Shown: positions 1,150-16,589 of the stretch, one piece after another
Position numbering within the stretch: the stretch's first letter is position 1
Layout: every line of letters begins with the position of its first letter
From: an uncultured Lachnospiraceae bacterium
Lineage (GTDB): Bacteria; Bacillota; Clostridia; Lachnospirales; Lachnospiraceae
Length of the DNA: 16,589 nt
Reading direction: 5' to 3'
NCBI GenBank assembly: GCA_958405355.1
Contig: CATYEA010000013.1
Location: 1 to 16,589, forward strand
Notes under the pieces: generated by a model
Databases searched by the model: none
Told to the model about the DNA's origin: nothing
Seen by the model: the letters and a program-made list of their open reading frames with translations, nothing else
Position numbers and translations under genes: made by a program

Positions 1150-1196
1150 AAGAATGAGGGATCGATAACAAAAATTTATATTTGGAGGTATACAAA

Positions 1197-2039: not shown

Positions 2040-2045
2040 AAAGTC

Positions 2046-2121: not shown

Positions 2122-2131
2122 CATCCAAAAC

Positions 2132-2172: not shown

Positions 2173-2234
2173 ATGAATAAATAAAGCTGTCTTACGTTTC
2201 CAGATATTGGCATGGTAAATATAGGTCCATTCAC

Positions 2235-2266: not shown

Positions 2267-2317
2267 ATAGCGCAGCTGATTGCACACGAATCATAATGAC
2301 TACCAAAGGAGGCCCCA

Positions 2318-2674
2318 ATGAACACTAAAATCCAACGACCACTCATGTTAATAACCATCGTACTGTGTGTACTACTTTTTATTGAACGATTTACTGGTGA
2401 AATTCCGCATGCAATATTCGGCTTTATACTCACAATACTTCCTGGAATACACACCTGGCAGCAAATGACTAAAATGAAATATAAAAACAAGTATACCCGC
2501 CTGGTGGATTGGGTACTTCTAATCTCTCTGGCAATTCTGCTTGTTACCGGAATTTTAGCACATCCGATGCACAGCGTACTGGTAATTAAGATTTTACATA
2601 AGTTTTCTGCGGTTATTTTTGTGCTTGGACTTATTGTTCATATCTTTCAGCACGTAAAAAAAGCACGTTGCTAG
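2318..2674 (+). CDS. Small four-helix membrane protein, DUF4405-like, possible heme ligands
   Basis: This 118-residue protein consists almost entirely of four hydrophobic helices, at about residues 8-25, 29-47, 62-82 and 87-112. Histidines sit at membrane positions (H31, H45, H82, H85, H94, H108, H112). This pattern resembles DUF4405 proteins, which are thought to be small cytochrome b-like or flavocytochrome-related membrane proteins, so heme binding is plausible but unproven. The start ATG follows AAAGGAGG with ideal spacing. The gene has its own promoter and ends just before a bidirectional terminator, so it is monocistronic. The charged loop KMKYKNKYTR (about residues 52-61) is probably cytosolic by the positive-inside rule. 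No partner reductase or quinone enzyme is adjacent, so its electron donor is unknown. Confidence 0.7.
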   Translation: MNTKIQRPLMLITIVLCVLLFIERFTGEIPHAIFGFILTILPGIHTWQQMTKMKYKNKYTRLVDWVLLISLAILLVTGILAHPMHSVLVIKILHKFSAVIFVLGLIVHIFQHVKKARC

Positions 2675-2701
2675 CTCATTTCTTTGCATTTTATGACAAA
2701 A

Positions 2702-2750
2702 AAGTGTCGCTCCATAACTAAGAATTTGTTATTTTGCGACACTTCCATTT
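2702..2750. terminator. Bidirectional intrinsic terminator
   Basis: AAGTGTCGC (2702-2710) and GCGACACTT (2736-2744) form a perfect 9-bp stem, extended by an inner ATAAC/GTTAT helix. A T-rich run follows on the plus strand (CCATTTTATTT) and six Ts follow on the minus strand. It therefore serves both the rightward membrane-protein gene and the leftward thioesterase gene. Confidence 0.85.
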
Positions 2751-3148
2751 TATTTATTCAATTTTGCTGCTGCCTTTGCTTCAATCTTGTCTTTCTGAAC
2801 ATAGGCTCTGACATGAGTTCCTGTGCCAATAACACCAGCCTCATCCACTGCTTCAAAAGAAAACGTCACCATCTTCTTTTCAACTTTTTCAACCTTCGCT
2901 GTACATGAAACCTTCATACCTACAGGTGTCGGTGAAGAATGGGTAATATCCAGAGTAACGCCAACACTGGCTTCTCCTTCCTCACTGGCCTGGTCCATAC
3001 ACATGAAACAAGTCTTTTCTGCCAATGCAACCAGAACCGGTGTACCAAATACGTTCGGTGTTCCCGGAACAGCGCTGGCTGCCGTCATATCCGGTGTAAC
3101 CACCTGTTCACAAGTAAATGTTGTCCCTAATAACTGTTCTTTTTCCAT
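2750..3148 (-). CDS. FlK-type hotdog-fold acyl-CoA thioesterase
   Basis: This 132-residue protein has the size and sequence style of the fluoroacetyl-CoA thioesterase (FlK) branch of hotdog-fold enzymes, which hydrolyse short acyl-CoA thioesters as cytosolic dimers. The FlK catalytic triad Thr42/Glu50/His76 maps with conserved spacing to T36 (GTPVLVALAE), E44 and H70 (DITHSSPTPVG). Many gut Firmicutes carry such a protein, and fluoroacetate is unlikely to be the natural substrate here; a housekeeping or detoxifying role for a small acyl-CoA is more likely. The start ATG has an AAGGAG site. It is the last gene of a three-gene leftward unit with an HPr-like protein and a DUF362 ferredoxin-like protein, and it ends at a strong terminator. 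Confidence 0.82.
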   Translation of the reverse strand: MEKEQLLGTTFTCEQVVTPDMTAASAVPGTPNVFGTPVLVALAEKTCFMCMDQASEEGEASVGVTLDITHSSPTPVGMKVSCTAKVEKVEKKMVTFSFEAVDEAGVIGTGTHVRAYVQKDKIEAKAAAKLNK

Positions 3149-3188
3149 ACTTTCTCCTTTTCCGCCGCATCCCCGAATCTTTACTGCT

Positions 3189-3416
3189 TTACTGAATAAA
3201 TGCTTTTAAAGAATCAATCAAAGTATCCGGGTTATCCCCATGAACCTGAATATTGATTGGTTTGCTTAAATCAAGGCTGAAAATACCCATAATGGATTTT
3301 GCATCGATAACATAACGTCCGGATACTAAATCTACATCGCCGTCATATACTGCTACAATACGGTTAAATTCTTTCACATCTTCAATACTCTGTAATAAAA
3401 TAGTTGCTTCCTTCAT
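3189..3416 (-). CDS. HPr-like protein lacking the active-site histidine
   Basis: This 75-residue protein matches the second half of HPr of the phosphotransferase system: VSGRYVIDAKSIMGIFSLDL aligns with the region around regulatory Ser46 (here S41). The usual active-site motif HARPA around His15 is missing. The corresponding segment reads QSIEDVKEFNRI, and the only histidine is H59. It therefore cannot accept phosphate from enzyme I in the normal way, but it may still be phosphorylated on serine or act as a binding protein, like Crh in Bacillus. The ATG at 3416 is chosen because GGAGAT lies at good spacing; an ATG at 3428 follows its AAGG too closely. It lies 37 bases after the DUF362 gene and 40 bases before the thioesterase gene, so the three are probably co-transcribed. 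Confidence 0.8.
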   Translation of the reverse strand: MKEATILLQSIEDVKEFNRIVAVYDGDVDLVSGRYVIDAKSIMGIFSLDLSKPINIQVHGDNPDTLIDSLKAFIQ

Positions 3417-3453
3417 ATTAATCTCCATTCCTTTCTAGGCACAAATAGTGCTG

Positions 3454-4560
3454 TTAAATCTGAATTAATTCATAGTCATCTGTTCCAAGTCCCAGCTTCT
3501 TGGCATGTTCCAAACAGCTGGTCCAGTTTGTGTCCGGGAATATATCAGTGAAATGATCATGATGTACATGTTCCACCTCATCCAGAACACTGCCCCTGCA
3601 AATCGGCTGTCTGTTGACAGCATCCGCACAGGCTTTATCCAAAGCCACCGGATCAAAGGATGCAAACATCCCCACATCCGGAACAATTGGTGCATCATTT
3701 TCTCCATGACAGTCACAATATGGGGATACATCCATAACCAGACTGATATGGAAATTCGGTCGTCCGTCAATAACCGCTTTTGTGTACTCCGCCATCTTAC
3801 AATTCAAAATGTCATTGGATTCATCCGATGCCGGTTTTACTGCATCCATCGGACAGACTCCGATACAGCGTCCGCAGCCGACACATTTATTATGGTCGAT
3901 TGATGCTTTCTTATCCGAAATGGTAATCGCATCATGGGCACATACTTTTGTACACTGGCCACAGCCGATACATTTTCTTTCGGATATATGCGGCTTGCCT
4001 GCACTGTGCATTTCCATCTTACCGGCTCTGGAACCACATCCCATACCGATATTTTTAATCGCTCCGCCAAAGCCGGCCGCTTCATGACCTTTAAAATGAT
4101 TCAGCGAAATAATGATATCCGCATCCATTACGGCCTGACCGATCTTAGCTTCCTTGACATAGGTCCCGCCTTCCACCGGCACAAGGGCTTCGTCCGTCCC
4201 CTTCAACCCGTCTGCAATAATCACATGACATCCGGTTGAAAATGGTGAAAAGCCATTGACATAAGCACTGTCCAGATGATCCAGTGCATTTTTTCGGCCA
4301 CCGACATAGAGGGTATTGCAATCCGTCAAAAACGGCTTTCCGCCCATGCTTTTTACAAAATCCACAACGGTCTTGGCATAGTTTGGGCGAAGATAAGCCA
4401 GGTTTCCCGGTTCTCCAAAATGAATTTTAATAGCCACATACTTGTTATTAAAATCAATGGTGTCCATTCCGGCCGTCTTCATCAGGCGCACCAGCTTCTG
4501 CTGTATATTTTCCCGTATAGTCGCACGGAAATTCGCAAAATATACCTTCGATTTTTCCAT
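3454..4560 (-). CDS. DUF362 protein with two 4Fe-4S ferredoxin motifs
   Basis: This 368-residue protein has a DUF362 core interrupted by a bacterial-type ferredoxin domain. The two clusters are visible as C197/C200/C203/C207 (CIGCGQCTKVC) and C226/C229/C232/C236 (CVGCGRCIGVC). The core carries NHFKGHEAAGFGGAIKNIGMGCGSRAGK, typical of the family. DUF362/ferredoxin proteins are cytosolic iron-sulfur proteins of anaerobes with proposed electron-transfer or metal roles and no firmly assigned reaction. The start is ATG 4560, behind AGAAGGAG. An upstream in-frame TTG at 4593 falls inside the -10 element of the promoter and so cannot be the start. It is the first gene of the leftward unit with the HPr-like protein and the thioesterase. 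Confidence 0.88.
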   Translation of the reverse strand: MEKSKVYFANFRATIRENIQQKLVRLMKTAGMDTIDFNNKYVAIKIHFGEPGNLAYLRPNYAKTVVDFVKSMGGKPFLTDCNTLYVGGRKNALDHLDSAYVNGFSPFSTGCHVIIADGLKGTDEALVPVEGGTYVKEAKIGQAVMDADIIISLNHFKGHEAAGFGGAIKNIGMGCGSRAGKMEMHSAGKPHISERKCIGCGQCTKVCAHDAITISDKKASIDHNKCVGCGRCIGVCPMDAVKPASDESNDILNCKMAEYTKAVIDGRPNFHISLVMDVSPYCDCHGENDAPIVPDVGMFASFDPVALDKACADAVNRQPICRGSVLDEVEHVHHDHFTDIFPDTNWTSCLEHAKKLGLGTDDYELIQI

Positions 4561-4592
4561 TTTCTTTCTCCTTCTGTTATCCTGCTCCTTCA

Positions 4593-4621
4593 ATTCTAAT
4601 ACGCCTCGAAAAGGCTGTCAA
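4593..4621 (-). promoter_or_regulatory. Strong SigA-type promoter of the DUF362 operon
   Basis: On the minus strand TTGACA (4621-4616) is followed by a 17-base spacer and TAGAAT (4598-4593), a near-consensus promoter. The spacer holds a short GCCT/AGGC inverted repeat. The predicted start of transcription lies about 25 bases upstream of the ATG at 4560. Confidence 0.8.
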
Positions 4622-4632
4622 TCCATTTCTTC

Positions 4633-4661
4633 TTGATTTCATCCATAGTAAATGCTATTAT
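4633..4661 (+). promoter_or_regulatory. Probable promoter of the malic enzyme operon
   Basis: TTGATT (4633-4638), a 17-base spacer and TATTAT (4656-4661) lie 45 bases upstream of the malic enzyme start. It is arranged back-to-back with the leftward DUF362 promoter, whose -35 lies 12 bases away. Confidence 0.5.
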
Positions 4662-4705
4662 TATTCATGTATTTTAATAAACTTATGATGAAAGGAATAT
4701 AGAAA

Positions 4706-5860
4706 ATGACAGTGAATGAGAAAGCATTAAAGCTCCATGAAGAATGGCAGGGAAAAATTGAAACCACTTCCAAATGCCGTATAAAAACACGTGAAGACCT
4801 GGCTCTTGCCTATACACCAGGCGTTGCTGAACCTTGTAAAGTCATCGCCGAAAACAAGGATGCAGTTTACACATATACAAGTAAAGCAAATACCGTTGCC
4901 GTTGTCTCCGACGGTTCCGCTGTTCTCGGTCTCGGCAACATCGGCGCTTATGCAGCCATGCCGGTTATGGAAGGAAAAGCAGCTCTGTTCAAAGAATTCG
5001 GAAATGTCAATGCCGTTCCAATCTGCCTGGATACTCAGGATACGGAAGAAATTATTGAAACTGTCATCCGCATTGCTCCGGCCTTTGGCGGAATCAACCT
5101 GGAAGATATCTCCGCACCTCGGTGCTTTGAAATTGAAACACGCTTAAAAGAAGTCCTGGATATTCCTGTTTTCCATGATGACCAGCACGGCACAGCCATC
5201 GTCGTTCTGGCGGGAATTATGAACGGACTCCGTCTGACAGGTAAGAAAAAAGAAGACTGTCAGGTCGTTGTCAATGGCGCAGGTTCTGCTGGTATCGCCA
5301 TTACCCGTCTCCTTTTGACCTATGGCTTTAAACATGTAACCATGTGCGACCGGTTTGGTATTATTTCTAAAAATTATCCAAACCTGAACTGGATGCAGGA
5401 AGAGATGACCAAATATACAAACCTTGAAAATAAAGAAGGAACTCTGGCTGACGCCTTAAAGGGCGCAGATGTTTTTGTCGGTGTTTCCGCACCAGGCATC
5501 GTTACCGCCGAAATGGTTTCTTCTATGAATAAAGATGCCATCATGTTCGCTATGGCAAATCCGGTTCCTGAAATCATGCCGGATATTGCAAGAGCTGCCG
5601 GTGCACGGGTTGTCGGTACAGGACGTTCTGATTTTCCAAACCAGATTAATAACGTAACAGCATTCCCTGGCATTTTCAAAGGTGCACTGGAAGGTCGTGC
5701 CCGTCAGATTACTGAAGAAATGAAATTGGCCGCTGCCGCCGCCCTGGCCGGACTTGTCTCCGATGAAGAATTGTCCGAAGACTTCATTATGCCGGACCCA
5801 TTCGACCCACGAATTGTAGATGTGGTTTCTAAAGCAGTTAAAGACCATATTGCAGACTGA
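4706..5860 (+). CDS. NAD(P)-dependent malic enzyme
   Basis: This 384-residue short-form malic enzyme oxidatively decarboxylates malate to pyruvate with reduction of NAD(P), linking C4 acids to pyruvate in the cytosol. The N-terminal domain carries the catalytic tyrosine Y36 (LAYTPGVAEPC), the loop SDGSAVLGLGNIG and the catalytic lysine K91 (EGKAALFK). Metal ligands are E133/D134 (NLEDISAP) and D158/D159 (FHDDQHGTA). The Rossmann motif GAGSAG is at 191-196. Length and motifs are typical of the bacterial YtsJ/MaeA-like group without the phosphotransacetylase extension; cofactor preference cannot be read with certainty. The ATG follows AAAGGAA. The next gene starts one base after its stop, so the two are co-translated. 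Confidence 0.95.
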   Translation: MTVNEKALKLHEEWQGKIETTSKCRIKTREDLALAYTPGVAEPCKVIAENKDAVYTYTSKANTVAVVSDGSAVLGLGNIGAYAAMPVMEGKAALFKEFGNVNAVPICLDTQDTEEIIETVIRIAPAFGGINLEDISAPRCFEIETRLKEVLDIPVFHDDQHGTAIVVLAGIMNGLRLTGKKKEDCQVVVNGAGSAGIAITRLLLTYGFKHVTMCDRFGIISKNYPNLNWMQEEMTKYTNLENKEGTLADALKGADVFVGVSAPGIVTAEMVSSMNKDAIMFAMANPVPEIMPDIARAAGARVVGTGRSDFPNQINNVTAFPGIFKGALEGRARQITEEMKLAAAAALAGLVSDEELSEDFIMPDPFDPRIVDVVSKAVKDHIAD

Positions 5861-5861
5861 T

Positions 5862-6848
5862 ATGATTTCCAGCTATTCAGAGGCTTTGCGGCAATGGCAT
5901 GGAAAACCTTATTTCTCGTTAAATCAGTATCTACAGGAAAAATTTGGCAAAAAAATATATAAAATTGCCCTGGACGGCGGTTTTACCTGCCCGAACCGGG
6001 ACGGAAGCCTTGGAAACCGGGGCTGCATTTTCTGCAGCGCCGGAGGCTCCGGAGACTTTTCCGGAGCCAGTATTTTCCAAAATGTTCCACCTGCCAGGGA
6101 TTCTTTGCCGGATATCCGCCTCCAATTGGAGGCCGGAAAGCAGCTTCTTTCCGAAAAATATGTCGGCCAGCGTTTTATTGCCTATTTTCAGGCATTTACA
6201 AATACCTATGGGCCGATAGAATATTTGGAAAAGCTGTATATGTCTGCCATTTGCCATCCTGAGACTGCAGTTCTCTCCATTGCTACCCGGCCAGACTGTA
6301 TTTCACAGGATGTCATTGAACTTCTAAAGCGTATAAATAAGATAAAGCCCGTCTGGGTCGAACTTGGACTTCAAACGATCCATGAAGACACCGCCCGTTT
6401 TATCCGCCGCGGTTACTCTCTGGATATTTTTACAGATGCCCTTGGCCGCCTGAGAGAAGCCGGTATCGAGACGATCGTCCATACTATTCTCGGACTTCCC
6501 GGAGAATCGGAAGACGATATTTTAGAAACCCATCATTTTCTTGCACAGCAGCCGATTCAAGGGATCAAATTGCAACTGCTTCATGTACTGCGCGGAACAG
6601 ATCTCGACACTATTTACCATACTCAACCCTTTCACATACTGACGCTTGAAGAGTATACGGATTTAGTCATCCGATGCATTGAGATTCTGCCCCCGGAAAT
6701 GGTCATCCACCGTATCACCGGGGACGGTCCAAAGGACCTATTAACAGCGCCCCTGTGGAGCGGCCACAAAAAACAGGTTCTGAACACGATTCATCACACA
6801 TTTAAAACCCAAGCCACCTGGCAGGGACGGCTGTATTCGCCCCTATAG
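5862..6848 (+). CDS. TIGR01212-family (YhcC-like) radical SAM protein
   Basis: This 328-residue protein belongs to the YhcC/YtqA group of radical SAM enzymes, related to Elp3. The iron-sulfur/SAM site is the family-specific C-x11-C-x2-C arrangement at C43, C55 and C58 within TCPNRDGSLGNRGCIFC. ELGLQTIHEDTARFIRRGY and HTILGLPGESEDDI are the typical later strands of the SAM barrel. The family has been linked to tRNA modification, but the reaction for this protein is not established here. The start is taken at ATG 5862, one base after the malic enzyme stop (TGATATG). A longer frame from 5820 would overlap malic enzyme by 41 bases. No convincing ribosome site precedes it, so translation probably depends on reinitiation from the upstream gene. 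Confidence 0.9.
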   Translation: MISSYSEALRQWHGKPYFSLNQYLQEKFGKKIYKIALDGGFTCPNRDGSLGNRGCIFCSAGGSGDFSGASIFQNVPPARDSLPDIRLQLEAGKQLLSEKYVGQRFIAYFQAFTNTYGPIEYLEKLYMSAICHPETAVLSIATRPDCISQDVIELLKRINKIKPVWVELGLQTIHEDTARFIRRGYSLDIFTDALGRLREAGIETIVHTILGLPGESEDDILETHHFLAQQPIQGIKLQLLHVLRGTDLDTIYHTQPFHILTLEEYTDLVIRCIEILPPEMVIHRITGDGPKDLLTAPLWSGHKKQVLNTIHHTFKTQATWQGRLYSPL

Positions 6849-6880
6849 GACACTGGCAAACGGTCAGGAAAGGAACATTT

Positions 6881-7417
6881 ATGATTGCCGATCCATCCAC
6901 TTTATACAAATTAATGATTCTCTATATTCTGAACGCCTCTGAATTTCCTCTCACAAATTCTCAGGTGTGTGAATTTCTTCTGGACAAAGGATATACCACC
7001 TACTTTACGACTCAGGCGGCCATATCCGATTTAATCGAAGCCCAGTTTATTTCCGTTGACCAGAAAAATAACAGCTCCTACTATCAGCTGACACCTTCTG
7101 GCAGAGAAACTCTGGAGGCCTTTTCCTCCTCCATTTCTGACGGCATTAAAAACGATATCTGCGCCTACCTGGCAGATAAACACTATGCCCTCCGCCAAAC
7201 GAATGAAGTGACCGCCAGCTATCTTCCGAAAAAAAATCAGGAATTTGACGTGGAACTTCTTCTCAAAGATGGAAAAGAACCGCTGCTCAAACTGCAGCTC
7301 ACCGTACCTACCGAGCTTCAGGCTGAACTGATCTGTGACCACTGGCACAAACAGAGCAGCGAAATTTATAATTATTTAATGACAACATTACTGACCAAAA
7401 AAAATGCGGATGAATAA
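6881..7417 (+). CDS. DUF4364 winged-helix protein
   Basis: This 178-residue protein matches DUF4364, a family found almost only in Clostridia. Residues about 5-80 form a winged-helix DNA-binding-like fold (LTNSQVCEFLLDKGYTTYFT, then DLIEAQFISV, then a wing YYQLTPSGRETLE). Residues about 90-175 form a second alpha/beta domain with no recognised motif. Its role is unknown; a transcription regulator is the natural guess from the fold. The ATG is preceded by GGAAAGG. It lies 32 bases after the radical SAM gene and ends the malic enzyme operon. Its last codons form the left arm of the operon terminator. Confidence 0.82.
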   Translation: MIADPSTLYKLMILYILNASEFPLTNSQVCEFLLDKGYTTYFTTQAAISDLIEAQFISVDQKNNSSYYQLTPSGRETLEAFSSSISDGIKNDICAYLADKHYALRQTNEVTASYLPKKNQEFDVELLLKDGKEPLLKLQLTVPTELQAELICDHWHKQSSEIYNYLMTTLLTKKNADE

Positions 7418-7432
7418 TCCGCATTTCTTTTT
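7402..7432. terminator. Bidirectional terminator overlapping the DUF4364 stop
   Basis: AAATGCGGAT (7402-7411) and ATCCGCATTT (7417-7426) make a perfect 10-bp stem with loop GAATA. CTTTTT follows on the plus strand and eight Ts on the minus strand. It serves the rightward malic enzyme unit and the convergent leftward metallo-beta-lactamase gene. The left arm lies inside the coding region of DUF4364. Confidence 0.88.
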
Positions 7433-7449
7433 ATCCTGAACTTTTCAAT

Positions 7450-9051
7450 CTATCTGTCCCATTTATCACAAAGATTATTGATCTGATCGGCAAGTTTCGC
7501 CAAATCCTTATTGGCTCCGCCTTCATTATGCTGTATAACGACCATAAGCCGTCTTCCCGCAGCCACAAGCCGTTCAAATACAGAACTGGCCTTTCTGGCC
7601 GCAGCCTTCTTCGACTTGCGAACCGGTACGGCTTCAACCACACAACTATTATCAACAAGGTCATAACTGGTGCCGCTGTACGGCGCCACCGCATCGTAAC
7701 CGTATTCATTTTTCAGACACTCTGTAAATGCTTCACACACAGCATCTTCACCATGAACAACAAATACCCGTTCCGGCTTCTTTTTAAATCCCTGAAGCCA
7801 GCAGATTAAGCCCTGCTTATCCGCATGACCGCTGATTCCGGCCAACTGTTCAATATGAGCATAGACCTCGATCGTCTCACCGAAAAGCTTTACTTCCTGG
7901 GCACCTTCCACCAATGCCCGTCCAAGGGTTCCATTGGCCTGATATCCAACAAACAAAACCGTACATTCCGGACGCCACAGGTTATGTTTCAAATGATGAC
8001 GAATCCGTCCGGCTTCACACATGCCGGATGCAGAAAGAATCACCTTTGGCCGACTGTCGAAATTAATCGCCTTTGACTCTTCACTGGAAACAGAAGTTTT
8101 CAGGCCAGGGAAGGTAATCGGATTAATCCCCTGCTTGACCAGTTCCATGGCTTCCTCGTCGAAACATTCATAAATATTTTGATTAAAGATCGTTGTTGCC
8201 TCAATGGCCAGCGGACTATCTACATAAACTTCAAAATTATCATGTCCTTTTATCCGATTCTCCGCTTTAATCTGCCGGATAAAATAAAGCATCTCCTGAG
8301 TACGGCCCACCGCAAAGGATGGAATGACCACATTACCGCCCCGGTCAAAGGTTTCCTGAATGATCCGGCTGAGTTCTTCCACATAATCCGGCCGGGTCTG
8401 TCCGTGGGAACGGTCACCATAAGTCGATTCGATAACCACGTAATCTGCCTCTTCCACCATCGACGGATCTTTGATCAACGGCTGATGAGTGTTGCCCACG
8501 TCCCCGGAAAAGACAATCTTCTTCTGTAATCCGTTTTCACTGATCCATACCTCTATACATGAAGAACCAAGTAAATGCCCCACATCGGTAAAACGAATAC
8601 GGATTCCCGGGCATATGTCAATGATCTTGTTATAATCACAGCCCGCAAAATGTTCAAGAACACCTTCTGCGTCCTCCATCGTATACGTCGGCACGACCTC
8701 CGGTTTTCCGGCCCGGCGCCCTTTACGGTTCTTCCACTCTGCCTCAAATTCCTGAATGTGGGCACTGTCACGAAGCATAATACCACAGAGCTGTTTTGTC
8801 GCATTGGTTGCAAAAACAGTTCCCCGAAAACCTTCCGCATATAATAAAGGCAGCAATCCGGAATGGTCAATATGGGCATGAGTCAAAAATACATAATCTA
8901 TTTCTGCAGCAGCCGCCGCTACCGGCTGATTTTCAAAAAAATCTTCTCCCTGTTCCATCCCATAATCAATAAATATTTTGTGTCCGCATGCTTCCAGATA
9001 ATGACAGCTTCCCGTCACTTCGTGGGCGGCTCCAGAAAATGTTAAACGCAT
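7450..9051 (-). CDS. Beta-CASP metallo-beta-lactamase-fold ribonuclease-like protein
   Basis: This 533-residue protein has a metallo-beta-lactamase domain with metal motif HAHIDH (H58, H60, D62, H63), H159 (VGHLLGS) and D184 (FSGDVGNT). An inserted beta-CASP domain begins at IESTYGDRSHG (about 207-217). SASGMCEAGRIRHHL and the late ISGHADKQG motif complete the set shared with RNA-processing enzymes such as the CPSF73/RNase J/YSH1 group. An RNA endo- or exonuclease activity is therefore expected in the cytosol. It is shorter and of a different branch from RNase J, and the substrate is unknown. The ATG has GAGGGA 5 bases upstream, but that site is buried in a long predicted hairpin (9057-9097). 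It follows engB in the same direction and may be the last gene of the tig-lon-engB cluster. Confidence 0.88.
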   Translation of the reverse strand: MRLTFSGAAHEVTGSCHYLEACGHKIFIDYGMEQGEDFFENQPVAAAAAEIDYVFLTHAHIDHSGLLPLLYAEGFRGTVFATNATKQLCGIMLRDSAHIQEFEAEWKNRKGRRAGKPEVVPTYTMEDAEGVLEHFAGCDYNKIIDICPGIRIRFTDVGHLLGSSCIEVWISENGLQKKIVFSGDVGNTHQPLIKDPSMVEEADYVVIESTYGDRSHGQTRPDYVEELSRIIQETFDRGGNVVIPSFAVGRTQEMLYFIRQIKAENRIKGHDNFEVYVDSPLAIEATTIFNQNIYECFDEEAMELVKQGINPITFPGLKTSVSSEESKAINFDSRPKVILSASGMCEAGRIRHHLKHNLWRPECTVLFVGYQANGTLGRALVEGAQEVKLFGETIEVYAHIEQLAGISGHADKQGLICWLQGFKKKPERVFVVHGEDAVCEAFTECLKNEYGYDAVAPYSGTSYDLVDNSCVVEAVPVRKSKKAAARKASSVFERLVAAGRRLMVVIQHNEGGANKDLAKLADQINNLCDKWDR

Positions 9052-9056
9052 AAAAA

Positions 9057-9097
9057 TCCCTCATTTCATATATTATTATCATATACGAAATAAGGGA
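9057..9097 (-). promoter_or_regulatory. Long leader hairpin sequestering the ribosome site of the MBL gene
   Basis: In the minus-strand RNA, 17 bases (9097-9081) pair without interruption with 17 bases (9073-9057) around the 7-base loop GAUAAUA. Two of the 17 pairs are G-U wobbles, which are only possible in RNA from this strand. The 3' arm contains the GAGGGA ribosome site, and UUUUU follows directly, so the hairpin can act as a ribosome-site mask, as a terminator for engB read-through, or as both. Confidence 0.65.
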
Positions 9098-9117
9098 TAA
9101 TTACTATAAATTTTTTA

Positions 9118-9717
9118 TTAAATTTCAGAATTTAGTGCATATTGTTCAATCAAATCCCAGATTTCATCCCGTCCCTGCTTGCTCACTGCAGAGAATGGAA
9201 CGATCGGTGTCCCTTCCGTTACATTCAGGCCAACCCGGATCTGTTTCACGTGCTTCGGAACCTGGCTGCGTTTCAGCTTATCCAGCTTCGTAGCAATAAT
9301 CACCGGATTAAAGCCCTGATCCACGATCCACTGATACATATGCTTATCATTGGCCGATGGTTCATGACGGATATCAATAAGCAAAAATACAAGCCGAAGC
9401 TGCTCCGACGTATGCAGATAACGCTCGATCATCGTTCCCCATTTTGCTTTGACAGCCTCAGAAACCTTGGCATAACCGTAACCAGGCAGATCGACAAAAT
9501 AAATCTCTTCGTTGATATTATAGAAATTAATTGTCTGTGTCTTTCCTGGCTGCTGGGAAGTCCGGGCATAGGATTTCCGGTTCATCAATCCATTAATAAG
9601 AGAAGATTTTCCCACATTGGATTTTCCGGCAAAAGCCACTTCCGGAAGGGTATTTTCCGGAAGTTTGCTCGTAATTCCGCAGACAGTTTCCAGATTTACA
9701 TTTTTTATAACGTGCAT
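9118..9717 (-). CDS. engB: Ribosome biogenesis GTPase EngB (YsxC/YihA)
   Basis: This 199-residue TRAFAC-class GTPase has the expected length and G motifs: G1 GKSNVGKSS (31-39), G3 DLPGYGY (76-82) and G4 TKLDK (143-147), followed by a G5-like FSAVSK. EngB proteins are essential cytosolic GTPases for late assembly of the large ribosomal subunit. The start ATG at 9717 is preceded by AAAGGAG; a longer frame from 9762 would overlap lon and lacks a site. It begins 10 bases after the lon stop, so the two are co-transcribed. The lon-engB order is conserved across Firmicutes, which supports the assignment. Confidence 0.95.
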   Translation of the reverse strand: MHVIKNVNLETVCGITSKLPENTLPEVAFAGKSNVGKSSLINGLMNRKSYARTSQQPGKTQTINFYNINEEIYFVDLPGYGYAKVSEAVKAKWGTMIERYLHTSEQLRLVFLLIDIRHEPSANDKHMYQWIVDQGFNPVIIATKLDKLKRSQVPKHVKQIRVGLNVTEGTPIVPFSAVSKQGRDEIWDLIEQYALNSEI

Positions 9718-9727
9718 AGAATCTCCT

Positions 9728-12067
9728 TTATTCACTCTCTGTCTTTTCAGGCATATGGACAAGAGCTGTCTTTAAAACATCTTCCATGGCTTCTGCATAG
9801 ACAATTTCCATGCCTTCATAAATTTCTCTATCCATCTCTTCCACATCCTTCCGGTTCTTGACCGGAACAACTACTGTTTTAATTTTGGCAACTTTGGCCG
9901 CCAGCAGCTTTTCTTTCAAACCGCCGATTGGAAGTACCCGGCCCCGAAGGGTAATTTCACCAGTCATAGCCACACTGGCCTTTACCGGAATTCCTGTAAT
10001 CGCAGAAAGCATTGCTGTTGCCATGGTCACACCGGCAGACGGCCCATCCTTCGGCACAGCGCCCTCCGGAATATGGATGTGAATATCGTGTTTTTCAAAG
10101 AAATCCGCCGGAATAAAATATTCCTCGCTCATAGAACGGATAAAGCTGATTCCGGCCCGGGCGGACTCTTTCATGACGTCTCCAAGCTTTCCTGTCAATT
10201 CAAACTTGCCATTGCCCGGCAAAACATTGACCTCCACAGAAAGAGTAACACCGCCTACACTGGTCCAGGCCAGTCCCCGGACAATGCCGACCTCGTCCTT
10301 TGAATTTGCCTCGTCAAAGCTATAACGCTCTTTGCCGAGATATTTTCCGAGCGTCTTTACGCCGACTTTCACATTCTTTTTATTTTCTTCCACAATCTCT
10401 CTGGCCGATTTACGACAGATATCCCCAATCCGCCGTTCCAGATTACGAACACCGGCCTCCTGTGTATAATGGACAATAATCTTTTCCAGTGCCTTATCTG
10501 TAATGGATATCTGACTCTTTTTCAGTCCATGAATCTTAATCTGCTTTGGAATAAGATGCTCTTTGGCGATGTGCATCTTTTCATTTTCCGTATAACTATT
10601 GACCTCGATTACTTCCATACGGTCTAAGAGCGGCCGTGGAATCGTTGATAAGGTATTGGCTGTGGCGATAAAGAGAACTTCGGACAGGTCCACCGGAAGC
10701 TCAATATAATTATCCCGGAATTTTGAATTCTGCTCCGAATCCAAAACTTCCAGAAGGGCAGAAAAAACATCTCCCTTATAATCATTGCTCGCCTTATCCA
10801 CTTCATCCAAAAGCATGACCGGATTTTTTACCCCGGCATTTTTCAGTGCGGAAGCAATACGTCCCGGCATAGCTCCCACATAAGTTTTTCGATGTCCCCG
10901 GATTTCTGCTTCATCCCGGACACCGCCAAGGCTGATGCGGACATATTTTTTATCCAATGCTCTGGCAACAGATTTGGCAATCGAACTTTTTCCGGTTCCC
11001 GGAGGTCCAACCAGGCATACGATTGGACTCTCGCCTTTACCTGTCAAAAGACGTACGGACAGATATTCCAGAATACGCTCCTTAACCTTTTCCAAGCCGT
11101 AATGATCTTCTTCTAAAATCTTCTCTGCCTGCTTCAGGCTGACCTTTTCCTCATCCCGCTTATCCCAAGGCATGGATAAAAGCGTTTCCACATAACCACG
11201 TATAACGCCACTCTCAGAAGCCATATTTGCCGATGAACGGAAACGGTCGATTTCCTTTTGAATTTTTTCTTTCACTTCATCGCTGGCTTCCAGCTCTTTA
11301 AGCTGAGCCTCAAACTGCTCTGCATCGGTCTGAGTATTATCCTCACCGAGTTCCTCACGGATGACCTTCATCTGTTCCCTGAGAATATATTCCCTCTGGT
11401 TTTTATCGACCCGTTCTTTCACTTTTGCCTGAATCTCCCGGGTAATCTGTATCATCTCTATTTCTTTCGTCATAAACTGGGCCAGCACCTCAAAACGCAT
11501 CTGTAAATCTACCGTTTCCAGACATTTTTGACGCTGCTTATATTCCATTGGAAGATTCGTACATAACTGGTCCACCAGTTTCAGCAAATTTTCTTCCTCC
11601 AAAAGCTGACGCACCAGCTCACTGCTGAAATTCGGATTCTGCATGGCATAGTTCTCCAAAAGTTCATGGAGATAACGCACATATCCGGCCTTCTGCACTT
11701 CATCAATCTCGCAGATTGTTTTATCAAAAACAGTAACCTCCGCTTTAAGCATTGGCTCCGTCATCATCAAATTATCAAGATGAGCTCTGTAGGTTCCCTC
11801 GACCATTACTCTGAGTGAATCCTTCGACAGTTTCACAATCTGCTTGATTTTAGCCACTGTTCCGAATTCATAGAGGTCATCCTTTCCCGGATCCTCCACC
11901 TCCACGTTACGCTGAGTCAGCAGAAATATATTCTGATCAGCCAACATGGCGGCCTCAATGGCCATTTTTGATTTATTGCGGCTGACTTCAAAGTGGACAA
12001 TCATATTCGGCAAAATCGTCATGCCCCGCAAAGCAATCACCGGCAGTTCTAAACATATATCATTCAT
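9728..12067 (-). CDS. lon: ATP-dependent protease Lon
   Basis: This 779-residue protein is a complete LonA. It has an N-terminal substrate-binding domain (about 5-200), a coiled helical region, and an AAA+ module with Walker A GPPGTGKS (354-361) and Walker B MLLDEVD (418-424). A C-terminal protease domain carries the Ser-Lys dyad S677 (KDGPSAGV) and K720 (GGLKEK), positions almost identical to S679/K722 of E. coli. It degrades misfolded and short-lived regulatory proteins in the cytosol as a hexamer. The start is taken as ATG 12067 (MNDICLELPVIALRG), matching the family N-terminus. An upstream in-frame ATG at 12127 would translate through a perfect hairpin and add 20 unrelated residues. The ribosome site (GGGAG, 13 bases away) is poor, so translation may be modest or coupled. 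Confidence 0.95.
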   Translation of the reverse strand: MNDICLELPVIALRGMTILPNMIVHFEVSRNKSKMAIEAAMLADQNIFLLTQRNVEVEDPGKDDLYEFGTVAKIKQIVKLSKDSLRVMVEGTYRAHLDNLMMTEPMLKAEVTVFDKTICEIDEVQKAGYVRYLHELLENYAMQNPNFSSELVRQLLEEENLLKLVDQLCTNLPMEYKQRQKCLETVDLQMRFEVLAQFMTKEIEMIQITREIQAKVKERVDKNQREYILREQMKVIREELGEDNTQTDAEQFEAQLKELEASDEVKEKIQKEIDRFRSSANMASESGVIRGYVETLLSMPWDKRDEEKVSLKQAEKILEEDHYGLEKVKERILEYLSVRLLTGKGESPIVCLVGPPGTGKSSIAKSVARALDKKYVRISLGGVRDEAEIRGHRKTYVGAMPGRIASALKNAGVKNPVMLLDEVDKASNDYKGDVFSALLEVLDSEQNSKFRDNYIELPVDLSEVLFIATANTLSTIPRPLLDRMEVIEVNSYTENEKMHIAKEHLIPKQIKIHGLKKSQISITDKALEKIIVHYTQEAGVRNLERRIGDICRKSAREIVEENKKNVKVGVKTLGKYLGKERYSFDEANSKDEVGIVRGLAWTSVGGVTLSVEVNVLPGNGKFELTGKLGDVMKESARAGISFIRSMSEEYFIPADFFEKHDIHIHIPEGAVPKDGPSAGVTMATAMLSAITGIPVKASVAMTGEITLRGRVLPIGGLKEKLLAAKVAKIKTVVVPVKNRKDVEEMDREIYEGMEIVYAEAMEDVLKTALVHMPEKTESE

Positions 12068-12099
12068 CTTTTGTATCACACTCCCGTAATGAACTAATA

Positions 12100-12123
12100 G
12101 GGCTGTACCTTTTGGTACAGCCC
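12100..12123. promoter_or_regulatory. Perfect 10-bp hairpin between clpX and lon
   Basis: GGGCTGTACC (12100-12109) and GGTACAGCCC (12114-12123) are exact reverse complements with a four-base loop (AAAA in the minus-strand RNA). No T-run follows, so it is not a standard terminator. It sits in the 76-base clpX-lon gap and could be an mRNA processing or stability element, or a DNA operator. Confidence 0.55.
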
Positions 12124-12143
12124 CCAATCTACAGTCATCTTAA

Positions 12144-13445
12144 TCAGGCAATCTCTCCGCTGCTTTGATGCGGAATTTTTTTACTGCCTGTCACCCGTTT
12201 TACAGGTGTTTTCTCACCATAAGTGAGTATCGGTTCTCCCTTGCCATCCACAACATCTTTGGTAATGGTGCAGGAATCTACCAATTCCTCCGATGGAATC
12301 CGATACATAATATCCATCATCGTCTCTTCAATGATCGCGCGTAATCCTCTGGCACCGGTTTTCTGTTCAAATGAGCGGCGAGCCACTTCCTTCACAGCCT
12401 CCGGTTCAAATTCCAGACGCACACCATCCATCTCAAATAACCGCTGATACTGGCGTACCAGGGCACTCTTCGGCTGAGTCAAAATCTGAACAAGGGCATC
12501 CTCATCCAGCAGATCCAGCGCAACGCATACCGGCACACGGCCGACAAATTCCGGAATCAAGCCAAATTTAATAAGGTCTTCCGGCAATGTCTGACGGAAC
12601 AGATCGCCGATATTCGTCTCCTCTTCACTCTGACGGATAACTGAATTAAATCCAATGCCCTTCTGACCGATTCGGGACTGAATGATTTTCTCCAAACCAT
12701 CAAAGGCTCCGCCGCAAATAAAGAGAATGTTTGTTGTATCAATCTGGATAAATTCCTGATGCGGATGTTTCCGTCCGCCCTGAGGCGGTACAGAAGCCAC
12801 CGTACCTTCAAGGATTTTCAGCAATGCCTGCTGAACGCCTTCACCGGAAACATCTCTTGTAATGGATACATTTTCCGACTTCCGCGTGATTTTATCAATT
12901 TCATCCACATAGATGATACCATATTCGGCCCGTTCTACATCAAAGTCTGCAGCCTGAAGAAGTTTCAGGAGAATATTCTCCACATCTTCACCCACATAAC
13001 CCGCTTCTGTCAGAGCCGTCGCATCCGCAATAGCAAACGGCACATTCAGCATTTTCGCCAATGTCTGAGCAAGTAATGTCTTACCTGAACCGGTCGGTCC
13101 GATCAAAAGTACATTACTCTTTTGAAGTTCCACATCCGAATCACTGTCTGCCATAATCCGTTTATAGTGATTGTACACGGCTACTGCCAGCGCTTTTTTC
13201 GCATCATCCTGTCCGATAATATAATCATCAAGGAAGGCTTTAATCTCCATCGGCTTCATTAAACGAATGCTTTCGGTAATATCCTCTTCCTCTTCAAACT
13301 CTTCGGTAATAATCTCCGAGCATATCCCAATACATTCATCACAGATAAACGCATTCGGACCTGCAATCAACTTTCTGACCTGATCCTGGGTCTTATTGCA
13401 AAAAGAACATCTTGGAATCTTCTTGTCTTCCATACGTCCTGCCAT
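12144..13445 (-). CDS. clpX: ATP-dependent Clp protease ATP-binding subunit ClpX
   Basis: This 433-residue AAA+ unfoldase is full length. The N-terminal zinc-binding domain shows C13, C16, C35 and C38. Walker A is GPTGSGKT (116-123), Walker B IIYVDEID (177-184) and the pore loop GYVG (149-152). The IGF tripeptide at 264-266 docks on ClpP. It unfolds tagged substrates and threads them into ClpP in the cytosol. The ATG is preceded by GGAGG at 7 bases. It lies 25 bases after clpP and upstream of lon, forming the expected tig-clpP-clpX-lon order. The C-terminal tail is ordinary for the family. Confidence 0.97.
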
Positions 13446-13470
13446 TATGATACCTCCGGCCTTTTATTAA

Positions 13471-14052
13471 TTATCTGCTAACAATGACTTTGTCAACTAA
13501 TCCATATTCCTTGGCTTCCTGGGCCGTCATGTAATTATCCCGTTCCGTATCCTGAGCAATAATCTCCAAAGGCTTTCCGGTATTTGCTGCAAGGATTTCA
13601 TTTAAACGCTGACGTGTTTTTAAAATCTGTTCTGCAACAATATTGATCTCCGTAGCCTGTCCCTGAGCACCGCCGGATGGCTGATGAATCATGATCGTGG
13701 AATTCGGCAGGGCCATACGTTTGCCTTTTGTTCCACCAGCCAGAAGAAAAGCTCCCATGCTGGCTGCCATACCCATACAAATGGTGGACACATCACATTT
13801 AATATAATTCATCGTATCGTAGATTGCCATTCCTGCAGACACGGAACCACCCGGACTGTTAATATAAAGGCTGATGTCCTTTCCCGGATCTTCTGATTCC
13901 AAAAACAGTAACTGGGATACGATCAGATTCGCAGAAACATCGGTTACTTCCTCTCCAAGGAAAATAATCCGTTCTTTTAAAAGTCTGGAAAAAATGTCGT
14001 AGGATCTCTCGCCTCTGCTTGTCTGTTCAATGACATAAGGTACTAAACTCAA
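13471..14052 (-). CDS. clpP: ATP-dependent Clp protease proteolytic subunit ClpP
   Basis: This 193-residue serine peptidase has the catalytic triad S98 (GMAASMG), H123 (MIHQPSGG) and D172 (DTERDNYM), plus the IGF-loop-docking ClpP fold. It forms the tetradecameric chamber served by ClpX, encoded immediately downstream. The start is an interpretation. The AGGAGG site at 14065-14060 is only one base from ATG 14058 but seven bases from a TTG at 14052. The TTG start gives [20 protein letters not shown], the standard ClpP N-terminus, so TTG 14052 is preferred. The alternative adds two residues. It follows tig by about 30 bases. Confidence 0.96.
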
Positions 14053-14082
14053 TTTCATTCCTCCTGTTAAAAATCAGGCTGA

Positions 14083-15357
14083 TTATTTTTCTACTGCTGC
14101 GTCCGTAATCATTTCGAGCGCTTTCTGTGCGGACATATCATTTTTCATCAAATCCTTGTCCATGTATTCTCTGACTTTATCTGCTTCCATGCTCCAAGAT
14201 TCAGCAAGTCTCTGGATTTCAGCCTCAATTTCTTCATCTGTAATTTCAATATTTTCAGCAGCAACAATAGCATCAAGAACAAGACGGTTCTTAATATTTG
14301 CCAATGCCTGTGGTTTTAACTGTTCAGCAAGCTGCTGTGGTGTCATGCCTGTATATTTGAAGTAAACATCCATGCTGAGTCCCTGGGCAGCCAGTTCCTG
14401 AGCATACTGATTCATCATATCATCTGTGCTCTTGCGAACCATAGCTTCCGGAATATCCATCTTTGCATTGCCGACAACAACATCCATAACCTTCTGCTGT
14501 TTTTCAGCTTTTGCTTCCTGAGCTTTTTTCTCTGCCAGGCTCTTCTTCAGATCTTCTTTGTATTCTTCTAATGTATCAAAGTCAGAAACATCCTGTGCAA
14601 ATTCATCATCTACGATCGGATAGTCTTTTGTTTTAACTTCATGTACTTTAACTTTGAATAAAGCTTCTTTTCCAGCCAGATCATCTGCATGATATGCCTC
14701 CGGGAATGTTACATGAACATCCACATCAGAACCAGCGGAAGCACCGATCAGCTGATCTTCAAATCCCGGAATAAAGGAACCGGAACCAAGAACAAGGCCA
14801 TAGCCTTCTGCAGAACCACCTTCAAATAATTCACCGTCTACGGAACCTTCGTAGTCGATCATTACTGTATCGCCATTTTCAGCCGGACGATCTACAGTTA
14901 CTTCTCTGGCATTCTGTTCCTGAACTTTTTTGATCTCAGCTTCGATATCTTCTTCTGTAACTTCAGCGCTTACTTTTTCAATTTCAACGCCCTTGTATTC
15001 TCCTAATTCAACTTCCGGTCTTAAAGCAACTTCTGCTGTGAAGATAAATGGTTTGCCTTTTTCAACCTGTACAACATCGATGCTTGGATAGGATGTGATA
15101 TCCAGTCCGGATTCCTTTGCTGCTGCTTCATAAGCACCTGGAATCAGATCATTTGCTGCATCTTCATAGAAAATGCTTGCTCCATAAAGTTTTTCGATAA
15201 TTGCCTGTGGTGCTTTACCTTTTCTGAAGCCCTGTACGGAAATCTGATTTTTATTTTTATTATAAGCCTTCGCCGTTGCAGCAACAAATTCCTCAGCAGC
15301 TACTTCAATGGTCAGTTTTGCCATATTGTTTTCTAACTTTTCTACCTGTACACTCAT
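14083..15357 (-). CDS. tig: Trigger factor (ribosome-associated chaperone, PPIase)
   Basis: This 424-residue protein has the three trigger-factor domains. The N-terminal ribosome-binding domain carries the signature GFRKGKAP (43-50). A FKBP-like prolyl isomerase domain follows at about 150-240 (GDTVMIDYEGSVDGELFEGG ... SFIPGFEDQLIG), then the helical C-terminal substrate cradle. It binds nascent chains at the ribosome exit. The start ATG 15357 gives MSVQVEKLENNMAKLTIEV, the usual family N-terminus. A longer frame from 15411 runs through the leader hairpin and is rejected. AGGAGG lies 12 bases upstream, slightly far. It is the first gene of the tig-clpP-clpX-lon-engB cluster, with a good promoter at 15422-15450. 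Confidence 0.97.
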   Translation of the reverse strand: MSVQVEKLENNMAKLTIEVAAEEFVAATAKAYNKNKNQISVQGFRKGKAPQAIIEKLYGASIFYEDAANDLIPGAYEAAAKESGLDITSYPSIDVVQVEKGKPFIFTAEVALRPEVELGEYKGVEIEKVSAEVTEEDIEAEIKKVQEQNAREVTVDRPAENGDTVMIDYEGSVDGELFEGGSAEGYGLVLGSGSFIPGFEDQLIGASAGSDVDVHVTFPEAYHADDLAGKEALFKVKVHEVKTKDYPIVDDEFAQDVSDFDTLEEYKEDLKKSLAEKKAQEAKAEKQQKVMDVVVGNAKMDIPEAMVRKSTDDMMNQYAQELAAQGLSMDVYFKYTGMTPQQLAEQLKPQALANIKNRLVLDAIVAAENIEITDEEIEAEIQRLAESWSMEADKVREYMDKDLMKNDMSAQKALEMITDAAVEK

Positions 15358-15384
15358 TGTATTTCTATTCCTCCTTAATTGGGC

Positions 15385-15410
15385 AAAATGCGTGAGAGCA
15401 TTTTTACGCA
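15385..15410 (-). promoter_or_regulatory. tig leader with two mutually exclusive hairpins
   Basis: In the tig 5' leader the minus-strand RNA can form AAAATGC/GCATTTT (15404-15398 with 15391-15385, 7 bp). Alternatively it can form TGCGT/ACGCA (15410-15406 with 15393-15389, 5 bp). The two share bases and cannot coexist. They lie between the transcription start and the ribosome site. A switch or stability role is possible, but no ligand or heat response is shown. Confidence 0.4.
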
Positions 15411-15421
15411 CTCTAATCTAT

Positions 15422-15450
15422 AGTATATAATATGGAAAGTCATATGTAAA
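15422..15450 (-). promoter_or_regulatory. SigA-type promoter of the tig-clpP-clpX-lon-engB cluster
   Basis: On the minus strand TTTACA (15450-15445), a 17-base spacer and TATACT (15427-15422) make a near-consensus promoter. Transcription would start near 15415, about 60 bases before the tig ATG. The spacer contains TATGACTTT, which is complementary to part of the unpaired stretch of the candidate guide RNA upstream. Confidence 0.75.
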
Positions 15451-15475
15451 TAGGCGAATTTGAAAAATTTAATGA

Positions 15476-15500
15476 GAAAAAGGCCCATTTACAGGCCTTT
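15476..15500 (-). terminator. Second intrinsic terminator upstream of tig
   Basis: AAAGGCC and GGCCTTT (15500-15494 with 15485-15479) form a 7-bp stem in the minus-strand RNA and are followed by a run of Ts. It backs up the terminator at 15511-15538, insulating tig from the locus upstream. Confidence 0.7.
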
Positions 15501-15510
15501 CCCCAAATAT

Positions 15511-15538
15511 AAAAAGGCAAAACACCAACGGTTCTGCC
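15511..15538 (-). terminator. Intrinsic terminator of the candidate guide RNA
   Basis: GGCAGAAC (15538-15531) pairs with GTTTTGCC (15523-15516) in the minus-strand RNA, 8 bp with one G-U, and is followed by TTTTTATA. It ends the transcript that carries the TnpB-like gene and the structured RNA. Confidence 0.8.
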
Positions 15539-15740
15539 CTTATGACTTTTATATAACTTCGGATACTCTCTGCCTGGACAAAGATGTCCAAACAATTCTT
15601 TGACAACCCCATACGAGCTGCCCGGCGGCACCCAACCGAAAGATTCCGCCCGTTGAGCGAAACCCTTTTTACAGTTTCCTGTTATTATTTTTATGAAACA
15701 ATGTCCTGCTGTCAAACATTCTGCATATGGCAGGACATGT
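15511..15740 (-). ncRNA. Candidate omega-RNA-like guide RNA at the 3' end of the TnpB-like gene
   Basis: This minus-strand region starts inside the last codons of the TnpB-like gene and ends at an intrinsic terminator. In order it holds: a 9-bp stem ATGTCCTGC/GCAGGACAT (15738-15730 with 15709-15701) spanning the stop codon; ACAG-GAAA-CTGT (15682-15671), a GNRA-capped hairpin; a domain with CAAC/GTTG, GGCGG/CCGCC and AATC/GGTT helices (15655-15604); and TGGACA-TCTT-TGTCCA (15590-15575). CCGAAG (15562-15557) can pair with TTTCGG (15641-15636) in the loop region of the central domain, a possible pseudoknot. Then comes a 16-nt unpaired stretch TTATATAAAAGTCATA (15556-15541), followed by the terminator. 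TnpB omega-RNAs share these traits: overlap with the gene's 3' end, several stems, a pseudoknot just before a guide of about 16 nt. No protein-like conservation is evident. I infer a guide RNA; covariation data are lacking. Confidence 0.6.
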
Positions 15741-16589
15741 GTTTACTCAAACTTTTCCAGGTCTTTCTTCCCAGGTTCACCCCGGCATTGACTCGGCGAT
15801 TCCCCTGATGTCCATTCTCACAAACAAATAACTCACCCCGTCGGCGCACCAAACCGCCGCAGACCGCGCAATATCTCTCGATATCCGACACTTCAGATTC
15901 AAGCACAAGAATGCCCGATTGCCATGCCTTATATTCCAAATGCGCACGAATCTGGTGATTCAGGCGCAGCGGTGACCAATTTCCCACTGATGCCATGACA
16001 TACTTCGTGAATTCTTTGCTGTATCGCGGGAGTACAATGACACCAGCTCCGGTTTCCTCACAAAAATCCACGATTTGACGGCTGATCTGATGGGCCATAT
16101 CCTCGCTGATCCACTTAAGCCTTTTCCAGTATTTTCTATTATCATTTCTGCCCGTTTTTTCTCCGACAGCCTTTTTTGAAACCCCAATCTTTTCCTGAAG
16201 CTTCCGACACCGATGGGCATAAGCTATGCCGCCTCTCATGAACCGCACCTCAGTCAGGCGGCCCGGCTCATCCACCACACAACATATGGCAATGGCATCC
16301 CCATTGGTAAACTGGACGGAACAGATTTTCATGTCCTCTGCCATGCGTTCCTTCAACGTCCTGCCATCCGGTACGACCTGACGAACCGGAACATGAAGCT
16401 GAACCACACCGTCCCTGAATACCAGCCTTGGAGACAGGCAGACCGCATCTTTCGGAATTATATTGCCGGATAAGCGTCCATGAATCCACCGCCATTTCTC
16501 ACCATCCCACACCTTGAGCCGGATAGAGTGACTGTCCAGATCCTTGTAATTTCCTTTATACAGAGTAACCCCAGATGCAAAAGCTTCTG
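15712..16589 (-). CDS. TnpB/Cas12-like protein with substituted RuvC catalytic residues (partial, N-terminus beyond right edge)
   Basis: The frame is open from the right edge (first full codon at 16587) to TGA at 15712, giving 291 visible residues. GTG at 16512 is only an internal codon. The C-terminal half follows the TnpB RuvC/zinc-ribbon plan: a RuvC-I-like strand (KICSVQFTNGDAIAICCVV), long bridging helices (RKLQEKIG ... YWKRLKWISEDMAHQISRQI), a RuvC-II strand (GVIVLPRYSKEF), the HLEYKAWQSGILV helix, a zinc ribbon (C240, C243, C256 and probably H260, visible numbering) and RuvC-III (GNRRVNAGVNL). The three acidic residues expected at VxxDxG, IxxEDL and DRDxNAA read Q92, P187 and R265, so nuclease activity is very unlikely although the gene is intact. 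Nuclease-dead TnpB homologues (TldR) are known RNA-guided transcription repressors. A structured RNA follows directly. A decayed transposon accessory gene is the main alternative. Confidence 0.82.
   Translation of the reverse strand, partial: EAFASGVTLYKGNYKDLDSHSIRLKVWDGEKWRWIHGRLSGNIIPKDAVCLSPRLVFRDGVVQLHVPVRQVVPDGRTLKERMAEDMKICSVQFTNGDAIAICCVVDEPGRLTEVRFMRGGIAYAHRCRKLQEKIGVSKKAVGEKTGRNDNRKYWKRLKWISEDMAHQISRQIVDFCEETGAGVIVLPRYSKEFTKYVMASVGNWSPLRLNHQIRAHLEYKAWQSGILVLESEVSDIERYCAVCGGLVRRRGELFVCENGHQGNRRVNAGVNLGRKTWKSLSKHMSCHMQNV

Follow-up and report, generated by a model that had tools for sequence, protein, structure and literature searches.

A nuclease-dead TnpB family with a covarying partner RNA, proposed as a regulator of surface polysaccharide operons in Lachnospiraceae

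Bacteroides has phase-variable capsule operons with Mpi inversions and UpxY/UpxZ, and LoaP is a NusG-family antiterminator of long glycan operons. A natural nuclease-dead Cas12f (dCas12f) is linked to a sigma factor. In TldR systems, including csrA-tldR of Oscillibacter, a protein with the TnpB fold has lost its RuvC acids, lies beside a scaffold RNA, is linked to a surface antigen (flagellin in the case of csrA-tldR) and occurs at several loci per genome, with DNA inversion upstream of csrA-tldR (PMC13418256). Here, we analysed a gene with these traits in a 16,589-nt stretch of DNA (the window) from an uncultured Lachnospiraceae bacterium (assembly GCA_958405355.1, contig CATYEA010000013.1, positions 1 to 16,589, forward strand), together with its relatives. 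The gene encodes a nuclease-dead TnpB-family protein and is followed by a structured RNA. The fold, the lost acids, the adjacent RNA, the link to a surface antigen and the several loci per genome were all shared with TldR, and upstream inversion was seen in relatives. However, the linked antigen was surface polysaccharide and not flagellin, no guide target was found, and no csrA or fliC was noticed among the neighbours by eye (no profile search). The word "polysaccharide" does not occur in the main text of PMC13418256; phase variation is covered in PMC13121745.

In its arrangement, a promoter that inverts followed by a dead TnpB, its scaffold RNA and genes for the cell surface, the system mirrors the csrA-tldR/flagellin layout. 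We therefore read the pair as TldR-like and as regulating glycan operons that vary by phase, with new partner genes, possibly a new mode, and putative DNA targeting. That a domesticated nuclease-dead TnpB and its adjacent RNA regulate surface polysaccharide expression falls, judged from sequence, slightly on the probable side. IS200/IS605 TnpB with its omega RNA has the fold, the zinc ribbon and a 3' adjacent pseudoknotted RNA in common with the pair; in contrast, D/E/D was absent here, no tnpA was found in the window and same-genome copies were mostly diverged. The RNA of natural dCas12f (PDB 9n9c, "dCas12f-gRNA complex") differs from the RNA described here. The Bacteroides capsule operons likewise have an invertible promoter, a regulator gene heading a glycan operon and several loci per genome, whereas in Lachnospiraceae that role would fall to a dead TnpB with its RNA. 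LoaP, an unrelated protein, likewise sits in front of polysaccharide operons that have a leader RNA.

The window protein is read from a minus-strand frame, 16587-15712, that runs for 291 codons and is open up to the window end. Its features were as follows.

15712..16587, minus strand: nuclease-dead TnpB-family protein, C-terminal 291 codons, with the start beyond the window and a full length of about 411 aa (profile matches, alignment)
16312..16314, minus strand: RuvC-I position, Asp to Gln (CAG), by codon reading and family alignment
16027..16029, minus strand: RuvC-II position, Glu to Pro (CCG), by codon reading and family alignment
15793..15795, minus strand: RuvC-III position, Asp to Arg (CGA), by codon reading and family alignment

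A full-length counterpart, P0001, has 411 aa and was 99% identical to the window protein over the window part. The Pfam family PF07282 (Cas12f1-like_TNB) was matched above its cut-off (30.4 vs 26.3 bits, E 4.3e-7), and NCBIfam guided_TnpB was matched at E 1.1e-12 with 48 bits, under its 100-bit cut-off. Seven more distant homologues with an intact site (VDLG, VFE and CDL, the last as CDLNA or CDLSA) fixed the alignment; their D, E and D columns fell on Q212, P307 and R385 of P0001. By both codons and alignment, the D/E/D active site of the IS200/IS605 TnpB nuclease was not present in the window protein, and the structural model of P0001 predicts a complete Cas12f/TnpB fold. A relocated active site was rejected: the only conserved acids, E70, D217 and E350, form an implausible triad (alignment before cleaning, no structural comparison). 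With one TnpA query in tblastn, no Y1 transposase was detected in the window. Elsewhere the same query matched only in G303, in a separate upstream element, and 14 kb from G649c, the search at most other loci having reached 1.5-kb flanks only.

Homologues were drawn from 133 clusters among the matches listed in profile searches, plus genomic copies; one profile search gave 289 proteins at E <= 1e-10, with 120 among the matches listed. Earlier sets had included unrelated frames, and five rows under 60 bits were dropped from the cleaned alignment. Its 177 family rows include clusters overlapping fetched loci and are rows, not independent genes. No D or E was found at the three catalytic columns (0 among 173, 174 and 172 readable rows, respectively). 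The RuvC-II column was Pro in 169 of 174 readable rows, the RuvC-III column in relatives was mainly Y, F, R, W or H and never D or E, and the CCC-H zinc-ribbon ligands were each retained in 170-172 rows. In a tree built from 83 family tips, seven active relatives and one canonical TnpB, the dead family came out as a clade (support 0.988). Omega, the ratio of nonsynonymous to synonymous substitution rates (dN/dS), was 0.073, 0.077 and 0.099 in three close pairs, two of which were close to synonymous saturation; it was 0.08-0.28 in five further pairs and not computable in two more. The pattern would fit a single old loss of the acids followed by constraint, for an outgroup sample that is small. 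The sequence-only reading of this DNA had described an uninterrupted TnpB-like frame in which all three catalytic acids were replaced, and had taken this to suggest selection instead of simple decay. The frame and the three codons were exactly as it gave them, and the profile matches, the alignment and fold of P0001, the missing TnpA match, the low omega and the uniform family-wide loss of the acids all agreed with it. Judged on these comparisons, the window protein is a TnpB homologue and not a chance frame or a lone decayed copy.

Most homologues were annotated with Pfam domain PF27142 in precomputed annotation. A sister TnpB-like group (L040-L045, L004 and L005) had D/E/D intact, L044 being truncated, and its first two zinc-ribbon cysteines were missing; two members of this group were on viral contigs.

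A similar region past the stop codon was seen in 21 copies compared side by side. Its parts in the window are listed below.

15553..15683, minus strand: core of the cognate, omega-RNA-like structured RNA, lying 3' to the gene (R1 match, fold z-score, covariation)
15671..15682, minus strand: 5' hairpin with a GAAA loop (ACAG-GAAA-CUGU), from fold and sequence
15624..15637, minus strand: GGU...GCC hairpin, whose loop 15633-15628 (GGGUGC) is a pseudoknot strand (covariation)
15561..15566, minus strand: 3' pseudoknot strand GUAUCC (covariation)
15553..15560, minus strand: conserved scaffold end GAAGUUAU (alignment, R1 match)
15540..15552, minus strand: tail past the scaffold (AUAAAAGUCAUAA), the putative guide position as in TldR/TnpB RNA (sequence)
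15511..15539, minus strand: intrinsic-terminator-like hairpin and U run after the tail (sequence and fold)

The region 15440-15720 folded better than its shuffles (z-score -3.7), and the covariance model R1 matched 15553-15637 with 57.8 bits, the window being among the 18 training sequences. The loop strand of the GGU-N8-GCC hairpin pairs with the 3' end just ahead of GAAGUUAU. With the RNA sequences hand-aligned at the two pseudoknot strands or motifs, this helix was paired in 107 of 108 cells (99.1%; 21 sequences, 18 distinct), compared with 19-47% when the partner was slid. Double changes occurred at all six pairs, and the inner stem also covaried; one measure of the pseudoknot, further pair types, was not above shuffles (159/500). 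Applied to 11 genomes, with 150 candidates scored in each, the covariance model placed 20 sites in 10 of them. Nineteen adjoined a family gene or fragment, and the twentieth was cut off at a contig start, ahead of a glycosyltransferase-like frame. RNA copies without the protein were not seen among these candidates, from a model that missed two known RNA copies in G243. No match was obtained in relative G290, which is without the gene, nor at eight active-type relative loci (one truncated), and Rfam gave nothing above gathering scores in 15350-15850. Among later loci outside the training set, the RNA was found in 22 of 24, the misses being a contig-end copy and a frameshifted copy. Over the full 28 loci of that search it was found in 25; L119 (contig end), L128 (frameshift) and L134 (G243c) were missed, the RNA of the last being visible by eye. 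Almost all family copies that could be inspected have a covarying pseudoknotted RNA beside them. It is probably an omega-RNA-like partner of the dead TnpB, and binding between the two is predicted.

At 10 of 11 wide-flank loci, the gene read into an apparent polysaccharide locus by eye; at G243c the polysaccharide-type genes sit on the opposite side of the dead-TnpB gene. The next gene belonged to a glycosyltransferase, nucleotide-sugar or polysaccharide family in 29 of 39 loci (Pfam; random-gene background not computed), and of the others two were DUF4422, one was NusG and seven fell outside all these families. This count omits three of 42 loci at which no next gene could be reached; L118, L123 and L124 were counted as polysaccharide-type through CoA_binding_3 alone, and at G264b and G264c the next forward gene was counted in place of short reverse frames. 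A stable link to a non-transposon gene was thus seen in relatives but not at the window copy, where the next gene is tig. The NusG-family (LoaP-like) gene is at L130:55-615, after the RNA and at the operon head.

The evidence for an invertible promoter comes from relatives, as the window ends before that region. Inverted repeats of at least 15 bp, 80-700 bp apart, were present upstream of the gene in 23 of 39 copies, compared with 3 of 288 control upstream regions; the controls were other genes on the contigs of 11 loci only, and several copies were mutual orthologues. The remaining 16 copies had no repeat of at least 15 bp within 900 nt, some having a longer flipping segment beyond that limit. 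Some repeats were, by eye, palindromic arms around a spacer that matched within the pair and differed between loci, a layout that by analogy resembles tyrosine recombinase sites. Two copies in genome G733 (L112 and L121; 6.7 Mb, quality unknown) had the same 371-bp segment with 97% identity in opposite orientation. In G649b and L114, from two genomes of one genus, a 1.4-kb segment was in opposite orientation (91%) ahead of the same operon start, and it encloses a tyrosine-recombinase-like gene. A gene of this type directly preceded the dead TnpB in G649b, L114, L115, L116 and L129 (also L006 and L122). Sigma-70-like sites were detected in 7 of 12 segments (p<0.05 vs shuffles, one direction), facing away from the gene in five (G649a, G264a, G264b, G264c and L011) and toward it in two (L002 and L012). 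The L011 repeats are palindromes and could be operators. Placed in front of surface-glycan operons whose promoters, in many relatives, probably lie in a flipping segment, the dead TnpB and its structured RNA may form a new type of RNA-partnered switch for the bacterial coat.

Other upstream and leader elements were also noted. The leaders of G264b and G264c (L061-L064) carry a second inverted-repeat pair (beginning ACTCAACA) between the RNA and the glycan operon, perhaps a second switch. Long inverted repeats unlike the others lie upstream in L009 and L014 (26 bp in L014, beginning CGCGCTCCCGC) and may be a different repeat element. An apparently complete, separate tnpA-tnpB element occupies L071:16858-18390, about 0.5 kb upstream of a dead-TnpB copy. 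A TTGGAT/TTAGAT-AAGTTAT stretch was kept shortly ahead of the gene start in G649a, G649b, G264a, G264c, L108, L112, L114, L121 and L129; AAGTTAT is common to this leader stretch and the RNA end, and the subsequent bases differ from the tail.

In the mechanism we propose, the dead TnpB would bind the adjacent RNA, and the complex would bind DNA or a nascent transcript with no cutting. It would be produced only with the promoter ON, and would repress rival or alternative surface loci or tune its own operon. If the protein is a TldR, the nucleotides after GAAGUUAU are expected to be a guide, and the RNA would direct the complex to DNA. TldR target matches can be short, and tail matches under about 12 nt were indistinguishable from chance without a target-adjacent motif. 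PMC13418256 names a seed of nucleotides 1-6.

Several results weigh against this proposal. The tail was 77-95% A/T at positions 1-8 (43 copies; no background computed), unlike freely chosen guides. The 40-kb flanks of same-genome loci held many short A-rich tail matches, none of them convincing. Within about 1.5 kb of 21 loci, prefix matches of at least 8 nt numbered 29, compared with 11 for shuffled tails; they were mostly A-runs and had no common position or motif. When two tails were searched genome-wide, allowing up to 2 mismatches, 6 and 7 matches lay away from the locus, compared with 1 and 1 for the reversed pattern, an unexplained excess, and the flanking bases of all matches showed no common motif. 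Same-genome upstream regions had a mean longest prefix of 6.71 (52 pairs), compared with 6.64 for other genomes (1465 pairs). The window copy, followed by tig, is atypical for the family, and its promoter falls outside the window.

At offset 0, the share of prefixes of at least 9 nt was 0.077 for the same genome and 0.083 for other genomes, and it reached 0.16 in the region upstream of the gene itself; at offset 2 it was 0.115 vs 0.069. These raised shares were taken as noise. Within the window, the window tail had three matches with up to 2 mismatches, itself included (0.76 expected), and its matches in five relatives were at or under the reversed control. Individual candidates were rejected: the longest local matches were 14 nt (G243c, a self-overlapping near-palindrome) and 12 nt (L011, within its own gene), three one-mismatch genome-wide matches lay inside frames resembling ordinary housekeeping genes, and the sole exact window-tail match in relatives lay within an hsdS-like frame. 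Targeting of the RNA's own leader, examined at the AAGTTAT motif of 16 loci, was also rejected, the similarity being 3.7/10 for the own leader and 4.0 for others. The earlier description of a "nuclease-dead RNA-guided DNA-binding protein" held for a nuclease-dead, constrained protein with a partner RNA; RNA guidance to DNA, for which no convincing target emerged, is a candidate property.

Given an AT-rich tail for which no target turned up, the complex may work without a programmable guide. As a dedicated phase-variable glycan regulator, it would then act either on the leader as it is transcribed or on promoter DNA rich in A and T, a reading we advance tentatively as less than probable. As part of it, the dead TnpB and RNA would by analogy occupy the place held elsewhere by UpxY/UpxZ or LoaP. 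A guide-less mode was not met for any TnpB descendant in the literature searched.

A serious rival, which we rate as doubtful, is a guide-less leader regulator acting in cis: it would bind nascent RNA and control read-through or translation in a LoaP/UpxY-like manner, with no DNA targeting. In 7 of 39 loci only 14-32 nt lie between the scaffold end and the following start codon (mechanically called), as this rival would have it, and the AT-rich tail without a found target, the gene at the operon head, the NusG-family gene next in L130 and the failure to find RNA copies away from the gene (11 genomes, 150 candidates scored in each) are all in its favour. However, the window RNA is followed by a terminator-like hairpin and then by an unrelated gene, 490-954 nt separate the RNA from the next gene in several loci, and the complete predicted fold means that DNA-facing domains are presumably retained. 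We think it improbable that the complex is instead an accessory factor of the DNA switch, steering a recombinase or promoter orientation and not transcription. Inverted repeats do lie directly upstream, joined at some loci by a recombinase-like gene, yet the 16 copies with no repeat of at least 15 bp within 900 nt (some with a longer segment) count against such a role, and in other bacteria inversion by recombinases is not known to require a factor of this sort. A functionless IS200/IS605 remnant carried by chance with mobile glycan loci is very improbable: the patchy distribution (7 of 299 family-level genomes), the database name "transposase" for some members, fragmentary copies, in-frame stops in at least four matches (L008, L020, L117 and G744:C109:25136-26374) and the G099 copy pair (92% identical over 182 aa) would suit it, but dN/dS of 0.07-0.10 in close pairs, the conserved RuvC-II Pro and CCCH ribbon, the RNA covariation and the fixed gene order with glycan operons do not.

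If the TldR-like regulator of glycan operons is real, dead TnpBs would govern the sugar coat of gut Lachnospiraceae besides flagellin, behind invertible promoters. A second, unrelated surface antigen would then be under a TnpB-derived regulator, and transposon domestication would be tied to phase variation in a way open to test. A long-diverged clade that has uniformly lost the three acids and has a covarying RNA of its own would make a clean system for TnpB function after cutting and for the need of a guide.

The sequence-only reading had stressed the position beside tig. This emphasis was misplaced, as the examined copies mostly head surface-polysaccharide operons and G290, a relative with 91-93% identity here, carries the tig locus with different sequence upstream and no dead-TnpB gene. 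The similarity of G290 to the window starts at 15481, inside the U run of the following element.

15474..15504, minus strand: second terminator-like hairpin, ahead of the tig promoter region (sequence and fold)

We propose that the window unit, which lies upstream of tig and has a putative terminator of its own, is either a stand-alone copy or an orphan. The gene was present in 0 of 5 genomes of the closest genus found to the window, and in 15 of 64 genomes of one genus. An order-level search matched 12 of 392 genomes, six of these being active-type relatives (one truncated, seen at RuvC-I only). At most 6 (family search) or 4 (order search) candidates were scored per genome, and copy numbers may be low. 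Plasmids (DNA query) and phages (protein query) gave no match. Carrier genomes often had two to four copies, mostly diverged, such as G264b and G264c with 64% identity. At the other end of the window, positions 1-1019 carry genes that by eye resemble an extracytoplasmic function (ECF) sigma factor and its partner.
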